From Planctomicrobium sp. (GTDB lineage Bacteria > Planctomycetota > Planctomycetia > Planctomycetales > Planctomycetaceae), in contig JAJDEL010000453.1 in NCBI GenBank assembly GCA_029259835.1, positions 1 through 22,914 on the forward strand: a stretch of DNA of 22,914 nt, given 5' to 3'. The translations under genes were made by a program, and so were the position numbers. Below, piece by piece: positions 10,732-22,914 of the stretch; within the stretch, counting starts at the first letter, position 1; each line of letters starts with the position of its first letter. Under the pieces are notes generated by a model that saw only the letters and a program-made list of their open reading frames with translations, searched no databases and was not told the origin of the DNA.

Positions 10732-10760
10732 TTGACAGTGAACTAATGTTCACGTAAAGT
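10732..10760 (+). promoter_or_regulatory. Promoter of the Y-family polymerase cassette
   Basis: TTGACA (10732-10737) and TAAAGT (10755-10760) are separated by exactly 17 bp. The -35 is a full match and the -10 matches at four of six positions. A start 6-7 nt after the -10 falls at about 10767, the A of the polymerase ATG, so the transcript may have no 5' leader. No Shine-Dalgarno lies before this ATG (GTGCGGAA), consistent with leaderless translation. Confidence 0.75.
10738..10753. promoter_or_regulatory. LexA-type SOS box inside the promoter spacer
   Basis: GTGAACTAATGTTCAC has perfect 6-bp inverted arms (GTGAAC/GTTCAC) around TAAT. It contains GAAC-N4-GTTC, the core of the Bacillus-type LexA/DinR box. 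It fills almost the whole spacer between the -35 and -10 boxes, where bound LexA would block RNA polymerase. The downstream gene is a Y-family DNA polymerase, a typical SOS target. Confidence 0.8.
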
Positions 10761-10766
10761 GCGGAA

Positions 10767-12017
10767 ATGCCACCTCGAAATCAAATCATTGGTCACCTGG
10801 ACGCGGACTGCTTTTACGCGTCGGCGGAACGCGTTCGACACCCCGGATTAAAACATATTCCACTGGGAGTGCTTGGCAACCAGGGGGCGTGTGTGATTGC
10901 CAAGTCGTACGAAATGAAAAACTATGGTGTGAAAACCGGTGTGCCGATCTGGGATGCCGTGAAACTTTGCCCGCATGGTGTTTACGTGAAACGAGACTTC
11001 CACTGGTACGAAGTCCTTTCGCGAATGATGCTGGACTACGTGCAGACAATCAGCCCGAAAGTTGAATACTATTCCATTGATGAGTTCTTCTTTGATGCGT
11101 CTGAGTTGACTCGACAACTCAGACGTTCCATGCACGAGCCTGCCGGCACAGTGTACGAAGCAGCTCGTACAGTGCAGGATGATATTCTCAAGCAAACCGG
11201 AGTGCCGGTTAGCATTGGCATTTCTCGCTCACGAACACTGGCGAAGCTGGCTTCTGACTATGGAAAACCATTTGGCTGCTTCGCCTTGCTGGATAAAGAC
11301 GAAATCGCCCGGTTTGTGGAGTTGATCGACATTCAGGAAGTGACCGGAATCGCAACTCGCAGTGCGATCAAACTGGCTGATCATGGAATTCGGACGTGTG
11401 GCGATTTCCGCAGAGCGGACGCAAGGTTGATCAACAAGTTACTCACGAAAAAAGGAGAAGCCCTTTGGTGGGAGCTTCATGGAGAAACAATCACTCCGAT
11501 TGCCACACAAAGACCAATGCACAAAGCGATTGCTCGCGGAGGGAGTATTGGAGAATCAACAAACAATCCCGACATCTTACAGGCATGGCTGGCCAGGAAC
11601 GTGGAACGCCTCGTCGAAGCAATGTACTGGCACCGATACGTAACGCACCGACTATCGGTTTCACTGTCTTACAAAGAAGGAAAGCATTGTTCTGATCGGT
11701 GCAAACTTCCTGAAGCAAGCAACGCTTCCGAATTGCTTCTGCCAGTTGCAAAGCATTTGTTTGAGCGGTGTTGGATCAGGCAGATGCGAATCAGTCACAT
11801 GCACATCATTGCTGATGACCTGCAATATCTTGGAACACACCAGCGTTCACTATTTGTCGACCAGAGTCCTCGTCTCGACAGTTTAAAGCGACTCATCAAC
11901 GAGAAGCTGGGACGCTTCAAGCTCCGCAGCGGAGAAACACTGCCGCTCACAGAAATCTACGGCGACGACGCACACCAGTACGACATTTGCGACGTGTATG
12001 GAAAAAGTTGCTTTTGA
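10767..12017 (+). CDS. Y-family (UmuC/DinB-like) translesion DNA polymerase
   Basis: 416 residues. The ATG at 10767 begins HLDADCFYASAERV, the first catalytic block (Asp12; Tyr17 at the steric-gate position). YSIDEFFFD supplies Asp105 and Glu106. GISRSRTLAKLASDYGKP is the family's finger/palm element, and the little-finger region covers about 245-350. QRSLF at 359-363 is a candidate beta-clamp-binding pentapeptide of the QxxLF type, followed by the helix RLDSLKRLINEKLGRF as in UmuC-type C-termini. The block VLGNQGACVIAKSYEMKNYGVKTG is closer in layout to UmuC than to DinB. It inserts nucleotides opposite damaged template. It is under a LexA-type promoter and coupled by TGATG to the next gene. 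No umuD is present in the window. Confidence 0.93.
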   Translation: MPPRNQIIGHLDADCFYASAERVRHPGLKHIPLGVLGNQGACVIAKSYEMKNYGVKTGVPIWDAVKLCPHGVYVKRDFHWYEVLSRMMLDYVQTISPKVEYYSIDEFFFDASELTRQLRRSMHEPAGTVYEAARTVQDDILKQTGVPVSIGISRSRTLAKLASDYGKPFGCFALLDKDEIARFVELIDIQEVTGIATRSAIKLADHGIRTCGDFRRADARLINKLLTKKGEALWWELHGETITPIATQRPMHKAIARGGSIGESTNNPDILQAWLARNVERLVEAMYWHRYVTHRLSVSLSYKEGKHCSDRCKLPEASNASELLLPVAKHLFERCWIRQMRISHMHIIADDLQYLGTHQRSLFVDQSPRLDSLKRLINEKLGRFKLRSGETLPLTEIYGDDAHQYDICDVYGKSCF

Positions 12018-12559
12018 TGTTTTGTCATCACCAGGAATTCCGTTGCATTCAACTCGACAAGGCGGAACGCGCGTACCAATTCGAAAAGTGCATTATGTTC
12101 GGAATTGCCTTACTACGTCGCGAAGTTCCGGATGAATTCATCGCACGTCATCACTTGCAAGGGCGAATCACACGACGCACGAAAGAGTCTGATGAAGAAT
12201 TACTCTTTCTCGACCAGCATTGTGTTCCTGTCCTACCAGTTTGGTTGAATGGTCAGTTGCAAATTCTCGCCTGGGGAAACCGCAACCCAAGCTCACAACT
12301 CCCACGCACGGGTTGGTGTATGACTGACAGCCTCAAAGAAGGTCAATGGGAATCGCTGCAACCCGTCGAAGTTTGCATTCCAGCATCCTACGCATGTGAC
12401 CGAGGAGTCTGGTATCTCGTCACGGAAGGAATGCGTGGAGTCATTGTCAAAGAGAGGAGCCGCCAAGTCGTCTATCTCCTTTCGCAACAGGCCACTCACT
12501 ACTACGAAGTAATGACCAGAAATCGCCGTATGCCAGTATTCATCGGCGAAACAATTTAA
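12017..12559 (+). CDS. Unknown protein coupled to the SOS polymerase; weak SRAP-like landmarks
   Basis: 180 residues. The ATG at 12017-12019 overlaps the polymerase stop (TGATG), so the two are translationally coupled; an earlier in-frame ATG at 11987 would lie inside the polymerase gene and is less likely. The protein is rich in Cys and His, including MFCHHQEFRC at its N-terminus and CIPASYAC later. PVLPVWLNGQLQILAWG and NRRMPVF recall the central and C-terminal motifs of SOS-response-associated peptidase (SRAP/YedK) proteins. However, the hallmark Cys2 after the initiator Met, the FYEW-type Glu and the His before RMP are not seen, and Cys is at position 3 behind Phe. It is not UmuD: there is no Ser-Lys dyad with a cleavage site. 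Function is unknown, and co-regulation suggests a role with the polymerase. Confidence 0.8.
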   Translation: MFCHHQEFRCIQLDKAERAYQFEKCIMFGIALLRREVPDEFIARHHLQGRITRRTKESDEELLFLDQHCVPVLPVWLNGQLQILAWGNRNPSSQLPRTGWCMTDSLKEGQWESLQPVEVCIPASYACDRGVWYLVTEGMRGVIVKERSRQVVYLLSQQATHYYEVMTRNRRMPVFIGETI

Positions 12560-21365: not shown

Positions 21366-21692
21366 TTATTTAGGGGCTTCGACAATTGGAGCATCGCAAT
21401 CGATGTCACACTGATTGTCATCGCACTCATCGCGGACGTCGTTGAAAATCGATCCACGAGTGTAGGCAGCGTCTCCACCTTGTCCGAATTGTTTAGCTTT
21501 GCTGAATCCAGTGAAACAGTAGCTCTGATTGAGTTGACCAATCGCATCGGCAACGTCGTTGAGTTCTGAAACAACAGCGTGTTGAATTTCGCTCAAACCG
21601 ACAATCAGGCCGATTACGAGGATGGTCGCCACGAGGACGAGTTCAGCAGAAACGATGAATCCTGCTTCGTCATTTAGAAGTGTACGCAACAT
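21366..21692 (-). CDS. Pilin-like small membrane protein, paralogue A
   Basis: 108 residues, ATG at 21690-21692 in the conserved leader GGGAACTAAAAAATG. The N-terminus MLRTLLNDEAG leads into a hydrophobic helix FIVSAELVLVATILVIGLIV, as in class III/Flp-type or type IV pilins, where a leader is cut before the helix. If cut after Gly11, the invariant Glu would sit at +6, not the usual +5. The helix is followed by QHAVVSELNDVADAIGQLNQ and a C-terminal acidic tail DECDDNQCDIDCD, which with YCFTGF gives four cysteines. I recall such proteins in many planctomycetes, often with no function assigned. A paralogue sits about 0.6 kb upstream. Confidence 0.85.
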   Translation of the reverse strand: MLRTLLNDEAGFIVSAELVLVATILVIGLIVGLSEIQHAVVSELNDVADAIGQLNQSYCFTGFSKAKQFGQGGDAAYTRGSIFNDVRDECDDNQCDIDCDAPIVEAPK

Positions 21693-22278: not shown

Positions 22279-22608
22279 CTATCGAATTTTCGGTTCTTCT
22301 ACGAGCGGTGGATCGCAATCAATATCGCACTGATTGTTGTCACATTCATCGAGGACATCGACAAAGATCGATCCGCGAGTGTAGGCAGCGACTCCACCCT
22401 GGAATTGCTTAGCCTTTGAGAATCCACTGAAACAATAGCTCTGATTCAAACTTCCAATTGCATCGCCAACATCGTTGAGTTCAGAGACGACGGCGTGCTG
22501 AATTTCGCTGAGTCCAACGATCATTCCGATGACCAGAATGGTCGCGACGAGGACAAGTTCAGCGGAGACGATGAAGCCTGCTTCATCATTGAGTAATGTA
22601 CGCAACAT
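22279..22608 (-). CDS. Pilin-like small membrane protein, paralogue B
   Basis: 109 residues from the ATG at 22606-22608, chosen because MLRTLLNDEAG and the leader GGGAACTTAAAAATG match paralogue A base for base except one. A longer in-frame start at 22662 would add 18 unrelated residues. The helix FIVSAELVLVATILVIGMIV, QHAVVSELNDVGDAIGSLNQ and the acidic tail DECDNNQCDIDCD correspond to paralogue A, with the same four Cys in order. The end is PPLVEEPKIR. The two differ mainly in the loop after YCFSGF and in the last residues, so this is a tandem duplication kept in both copies. Shared unpaired Cys suggest disulfides or metal binding. Confidence 0.85.
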   Translation of the reverse strand: MLRTLLNDEAGFIVSAELVLVATILVIGMIVGLSEIQHAVVSELNDVGDAIGSLNQSYCFSGFSKAKQFQGGVAAYTRGSIFVDVLDECDNNQCDIDCDPPLVEEPKIR

Positions 22609-22914
22609 TTTTAAGTTCCCATTTGTAATTTTTGTATCTTGAATGAATCGGCGACATGCCAATTCAATTCGCTATGAATGGAACTGATCCTCCCACTCAC
22701 AGGTTTTTGTCATACTCACCTTCGCCCAGGCGAGTTCAGACGAAAGCAGACGCAGGGCGACGCATCCGCTACGATTCCCCCTGGGAGTTCAGCAACGAAC
22801 GGTTGCAAAATTGCTTCCTTGGGGAACAAAGTGTGATGACAGTTATTCACTCTTTGTGCAAGAATCCAAAAGCAACAGCTATGCCGATTGTGACGGATAT
22901 AACCGTAAGACGGG
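22609..22914. other. Right-edge intergenic region, possibly the start of a further gene
   Basis: A plus-strand frame from an ATG at 22674 stays open to the edge (80 codons), and two other frames are also open there. None has a recognised motif or convincing ribosome site, so I cannot call a gene. The stretch just upstream of paralogue B is otherwise unremarkable. Confidence 0.3.

Follow-up and report, generated by a model that had tools for sequence, protein, structure and literature searches.

What is known of how the SOS response governs translesion polymerases concerns mainly transcription and protein turnover. In E. coli recA the LexA box, with the operator sequence CTGT-N8-ACAG, lies in the spacer between the -35 and -10 hexamers, and a leader and a Shine-Dalgarno sequence are present; the DinR/LexA box of Bacillus subtilis has the core GAAC-N4-GTTC. 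Leaderless mRNAs are reportedly important in Deinococcus, going by the title of an RNA-seq paper. The imuY-imuB-C-dnaE2 mutagenesis cassette of this genus is placed under LexA in passages of another study (PMC8072749), and the lexA gene of Mycobacterium tuberculosis is described as leaderless, its translation beginning where transcription does (PMC2897130). A UmuC-like PolY with an SRAP-related partner is listed, in the passages on such systems, as one of 11 DnaE2/PolY modules (PMC12926913). For Planctomycetes, one passage states that LexA does not use the E. coli box (PMC3108266), and passages from three papers on LexA and SOS in this group give no planctomycete operator. Here, a stretch of 22,914 nucleotides (the window; contig C393 of an 82%-complete planctomycete assembly of 6.0 Mb) was analyzed; among named relatives, Planctomicrobium sp. 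CSMAG_88 (L092) comes nearest, with 89% identity. The window carries a gene for a Y-family DNA polymerase followed by one for an SRAP-fold partner, and these most likely form an SOS operon driven by a promoter with a LexA operator in its spacer and transcribed as a leaderless mRNA.

The polymerase gene (10767..12017, + strand) encodes a UmuC/DinB-like protein of 416 aa, from a subfamily found mainly in Planctomycetota (PF00817, E 4.5e-40; PF11799, E 2.8e-12). Directly upstream on the same strand are a -35 hexamer TTGACA (10732..10737; 6/6) and a -10 hexamer TAAAGT (10755..10760; 4/6), which jointly scored 10/12 in a promoter scan; between 10480 and 10900, the + strand holds no other consensus promoter. 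The 17-bp spacer between them (10738-10754) begins with 16 bases forming a perfect 6-4-6 palindrome, GTGAACTAATGTTCAC, the predicted LexA operator (10738..10753, + strand). Six bases, GCGGAA (10761-10766), separate the -10 from the ATG at 10767, and the canonical +1, 7 nt past the -10, falls on the A of this ATG, within 1-2 nt. From this distance, and from that of mostly 6-7 nt in the orthologues, transcription is predicted to start on the + strand at 10765..10767, on the A of this codon or no more than 2 nt ahead of it. This ATG is the only sensible start codon, since an in-frame TAA within the -10 (10755-10757) rules out any upstream one, and HLDADCFYAS starts at codon 10, so that a later start would cost conserved catalytic residues. 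The initial annotation had read the same hexamers, spacer length, box and ATG, with a +1 at the A of the ATG or within a base of it and no Shine-Dalgarno sequence. All these elements were recovered at the same positions, the predicted +1 fits the 6-nt gap and the canonical start distance, and the segment from -18 to -4, TTCACGTAAAGTGCG, contains no Shine-Dalgarno sequence.

The box was then compared with the sites of known SOS genes. In its own genome, recA carries GTGTTCTAATGTTCAC, identical to the polymerase box at 14/16 positions and with the same four central bases. Close variants of it were found at recA in five same-genus genomes, and GTGRAC-N4-GTATAY was found upstream of lexA in 5/5 same-genus genomes searched. 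An operator matrix was built from ten of these recA and lexA sites, excluding any polymerase site. By this matrix the polymerase box scored 19.3 bits, a value reached at 0/799,400 positions in 400 kb of the same-genus genome G005, and it lay 9 bits above the window's second-best distinct site. When the training sites were de-duplicated and its own recA omitted, the box still ranked first of 391,278 positions in a sample of its own genome (173 kb plus the window, ~196 kb, from contigs all known to hold a GAAC-N4-GTTC site). The box of the G002 orthologue scored 14.8 bits with the same matrix, with one background position as high. Therefore, as the initial annotation had proposed, and as far as sites matching at recA and lexA can tell, the spacer box is very probably a LexA operator.

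The same annotation had called the box Bacillus-type GAAC-N4-GTTC and had proposed a genome scan for this motif. The core was borne out, but the sites of this lineage are longer and looser, approximately GTGWWC-N4-GTWYAC, and the copy at recA reads GTTC-N4-GTTC; the lexA box came from the same-genus genomes only, and the bare motif was set aside as genome-wide evidence, since it is weak alone (124 sites, compared with 90 when the pattern was reversed as a control). Exact GTGAAC-N4-GTTCAC occurs once in the window, and allowing two mismatches gave three matches against 1.3 expected. The extended GTGWACN4GTWCAC has a single match in the 6.0-Mb assembly, the polymerase box, but the reversed control has two, which makes the count alone uninformative. 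Over 40 genomes this extended motif was also rejected, with 13 sites, fewer than the 29 of the reversed control, and several matches inside coding sequence.

The leaderless layout was examined in a set of loci drawn from 80 of 172 confirmed relatives. The orthologue count comprised 79 of the 80 named loci, the window and five further loci, giving 85, or 76 once nine near-copies were removed. L138, which starts at its own contig edge, was dropped, and the count also leaves aside three copies of named loci (L006, L010, and L034), three apparent copies (L008, L009, and L014), the partial L017 and one further subfamily entry without a locus. The strict rule required at least 4/6 matches to TTGACA, a spacer of 16-18 bp, TANNNT with at least 4/6 matches to TATAAT, and 5-9 nt to an ATG; it detects strong sigma-70 promoters only, and weak leaderless genes would escape it. 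The layout was found in 33/76 non-redundant loci (34/77 if L013 is included, a non-copy outside the count that satisfies the rule with a gap of 7). Among cultured strains, Singulisphaera acidiphila DSM 18658 (L130), Bythopirellula polymerisocia (L131) and Adhaeretor mobilis (L158) have it, and Zavarzinella formosa (L140 and L152) does not. Among controls, in which genes were called by open reading frame only, it was present in 0/235 genes of the 400 kb of G005, in 6/336 neighboring open reading frames, one of which reads the same box from the opposite side, and in 1/130 sampled genes of its own genome, this one being the polymerase gene. Within the limits of the strong-promoter rule, these backgrounds agree with the earlier remark that such a gene would be unusual in the lineage. 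Shuffled sequences gave 132/22,500.

The position of the promoter was also informative. A strict promoter lies at most 100 nt upstream in 40 loci; of these, the gap between the -10 and the start codon was 6-9 nt in 33 and exactly 6 or 7 nt in 31, a clustering that supports the leaderless reading already given by the initial annotation. The layout was found at 33/93 candidate ATGs and at 0/45 candidate GTG or TTG codons, as would be expected if initiation is leaderless. In the loci with a gap of 7 (n = 22), the base preceding the ATG is C in 19 and T in 3, a pyrimidine in 22/22, which makes the ATG's own A the earliest purine at the distance where transcription usually starts. Loci with a gap of 6, the type to which the window's promoter belongs, have C in five, G in two and A in two at this base, and these purines would permit a start 1-2 nt earlier. 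Additionally, a dyad score of 7-8 out of 8 was obtained in 19/33 strict promoters, compared with 3% of shuffles. In six loci the dyad covers the -10 and start codon and not the spacer.

Four of the orthologue loci belong to Peribacteria/Peregrinibacteria. Three of them (L165, L166, and L168) match at 34-37% identity and form one branch, and their genomes possess lexA. A different palindrome, GGTGAG-N6-CTCACC, occurs in these three genomes in 7, 4 and 3 copies (14 in total; reversed control, 0) and precedes lexA, recA and the polymerase gene, one copy each, in 3/3 of them (the identity of two of the recA genes was checked); it is a candidate LexA operator of this group. The arrangement TTGACG-box-TATNAT-6 nt-ATG was observed at 2/3 polymerases, L165 being different, and recA and lexA begin 30-44 nt past the box. 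One PIF1-like helicase gene shares the polymerase-type spacing after GGTGAG-N6-CTCACC. In the sites listed as L198-L211 (G040, G041, and G042), TTGAC-box-TA was seen at lexA and recA in 3/3 genomes and at the polymerase in 2/3, and the palindrome also stands ahead of two further genes, for a PIF1-like helicase and for a D12 adenine methyltransferase. Three copies in G040 (L206, L208, and L209) lie near a repeated stretch with GAGCATTT, with no obvious SOS gene beside them. The genome of the fourth locus (L124, G043) holds no copy of GGTGAG-N6-CTCACC. Its polymerase gene has GTGTACGCTTGTACAC with a strict leaderless promoter; reading by eye, recA carries GGTGTACTTCCATACACC, one of the two lexA-like genes carries GTGAACGATCGTCCAC, and no box was seen at the second. 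From these four loci, the operator of the polymerase appears to track the operator type of each genome, the short distance to the ATG often being kept. The subfamily is sporadic in that phylum. Twenty of 286 phylum genomes around a Peribacteria genome match at 1e-40, and all except the query's own genome do so at 26-37% identity, thus resembling other Y-family polymerases more; 3 of 192 class genomes match at 1e-70. Nothing was found in the literature on LexA in Peregrinibacteria.

By contrast with the polymerase gene, recA and lexA seem to be leadered. In the window's own genome, recA has the promoter TTGATT-16-TATTAT and, by eye, a leader of ~40 nt with AAGGAG, while same-genus lexA genes begin several tens of bases or more past the box, and those of G002 and G004 show AAGGAG ahead of the start codon (by eye). 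The recA promoters of four genus members (L074, L075, L071, and L073) read TTGATT-16-TANNRT, with the box one base past the -10, and the operator there therefore covers the start region and not the spacer. In G003, a dinB-type polymerase gene (L087) has GTGAACTTGTGTTCAC upstream, with ~60 nt to its likely start, and is probably SOS-controlled with a leader. Leaderlessness would therefore not be general to these SOS promoters.

Several observations weigh against this interpretation, and they bear on both of its parts. As for the operator, the sites of the matrix were picked by eye, the box of the G003 orthologue is unremarkable (8.5 bits, with 104/799,400 background positions as high), and lexA, present in 38/40 genomes searched, was not found in the 82%-complete assembly of the window itself nor in G021. 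The palindrome might accordingly be the site of another dimeric repressor, with the gene outside the SOS regulon, a reading to which the missing lexA and the GTTC-N4-GTTC form of the recA site would lend themselves. We regard it as very improbable, because the 16-bp frame is common to the window's own recA and the same-genus lexA genes, and because the polymerase again shares its operator with lexA and recA in the three Peribacteria/Peregrinibacteria genomes, even though the sequence of this operator is unlike that of the planctomycetes. As for the layout, the loci are mutually related and the counts overstate their independence. The tree holds 81 of the 85 rows, among them L162, which was retained although its branch is very long and its match length cannot be divided by three. 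On this tree 15 changes of the strict label are needed, and well-supported branches force 10 of these. None of the nine Gemmataceae-labelled rows shows the layout. The same-genus orthologue of G005 keeps the 6-nt gap with a weak -35 and no recognizable box. The layout is thus common and recurrent, and is neither universal nor, given these changes of label, a fixed family trait.

These exceptions leave room for a gene that is LexA-controlled and yet not truly leaderless, transcription starting a few bases earlier or from an upstream promoter and the close ATG reflecting compaction. A gap of 6 permits starts at 10765 or 10766, 35/76 loci satisfy neither the strict rule nor a relaxed one, and some orthologues clearly appear leadered, such as L129, in which AAGGAG stands between a box-like dyad and the ATG. 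This possibility was judged unlikely in view of the lack of a second consensus promoter between 10480 and 10900 (+ strand), the clustering of the gap at 6-7 nt across diverged loci, and the start-codon and pyrimidine patterns given above; moreover, even with 1-3 nt of leader the mRNA would have no Shine-Dalgarno sequence. An equally small chance was given to leaderlessness being a genome-wide default, uninformative on the polymerase gene. Passages on one surveyed planctomycete genome report low Shine-Dalgarno use and a base bias of the leaderless/S1 type (PMC5397173), and an SD-like 4-mer was found at just 37/128 first ATGs of the window's own genome, the first ATG being a crude guess of the start. 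Nevertheless, apart from the polymerase gene, the strict layout was absent from all 235 control genes of G005 and from all 129 other sampled genes of the window's own genome, as far as strong sigma-70 promoters go.

Under the preferred reading, of a LexA-controlled leaderless operon, one sigma-70-type promoter would serve both the translesion polymerase and its SRAP-fold partner. In undamaged cells LexA would sit on the spacer and shut RNA polymerase out, and after damage its RecA-stimulated cleavage would release the promoter. Transcription would then begin at the A of the polymerase AUG, or within 1-2 nt of it, giving an mRNA without leader or Shine-Dalgarno sequence, while recA and lexA of the same regulon would retain their leaders. 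Leaderless initiation, by entry of 70S ribosomes, probably caps the output and couples it to the state of the ribosomes; the initial annotation had supposed that translation by intact 70S ribosomes would thereby evade the normal control of initiation.

The products of the operon were also examined. Both the IMS and the IMS_C domain are present in the polymerase, its D12 and the motif S103-I-D-E106 are unchanged in 13/13 aligned orthologues, and all 10 NCBIfam Pol IV/Pol V models that matched fell below their cut-off (best, 180 bits against 399). The downstream gene (12095..12559, + strand) encodes a protein of 154 aa with an SRAP fold (YedK/HMCES-like), and an alternative in-frame ATG at 12017 overlaps the polymerase stop (TGATG). 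Cysteine as the second residue is described as absolutely conserved in a passage on SRAP (PMC3765255). It is present in 33/45 members of an alignment that joins the window protein to 44 open reading frames out of the 55 located, and is lacking in the window protein (12017-12559), which begins MFGI. A beta-lactamase inhibitor identity of this family, suggested by the sole profile match (5e-5 over 43 positions) against solved structures, was rejected, as fold comparison did not support it. Elsewhere in the window, two highly similar adjacent open reading frames on the - strand (21366-21692 and 22279-22662) have a common N-terminal part, MLRTLLNDEAGFIVSAELVLVATILVIG, which is pilin-like by eye. 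A plasmid origin of the window was discarded, the best 5,000 plasmid records all showing less than 60% identity.

The recurrence of a predicted leaderless start at the polymerase, when recA and lexA, controlled by the same repressor, seem to be leadered, suggests translational sorting within the regulon, and candidate LexA operator motifs are provided for the Planctomicrobium-like genus and for Peribacteria/Peregrinibacteria. It is conceivable, if somewhat doubtful, that leaderless initiation has been selected as a layer of regulation in the polymerase-SRAP operon, kept or regained across Planctomycetota and some Peribacteria/Peregrinibacteria despite replacement of the operator, and giving 70S-type synthesis of the polymerase apart from Shine-Dalgarno-led recA and lexA.

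Compared with the systems described above, the predicted promoter resembles that of E. coli recA in that the operator fills the spacer, where LexA excludes RNA polymerase; unlike it, the operator sequence is unrelated and the polymerase gene, in place of a leader with a Shine-Dalgarno sequence, is predicted to be leaderless. With the B. subtilis DinR/LexA box it shares the core, although the lineage frame tolerates other half-sites. As in the lexA account from M. tuberculosis, an SOS gene would be read from a leaderless mRNA, but in a different phylum and for a polymerase instead of the regulator. Like the Deinococcus cassette, as the passages on it describe it, this would be a LexA-controlled mutagenesis operon, with another polymerase module; those passages do not say if the cassette is leaderless. 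The pairing of the polymerase and SRAP-fold genes has been reported before, and the UmuC-like PolY/SRAP module of PMC12926913 is very probably the operon type of the window; the passages on that module are silent on promoters, LexA sites and leaders. Overall, the translesion polymerase operon is predicted to have a leaderless promoter with a LexA operator in its spacer, an arrangement that recurs across one phylum and is retained in part of a second.
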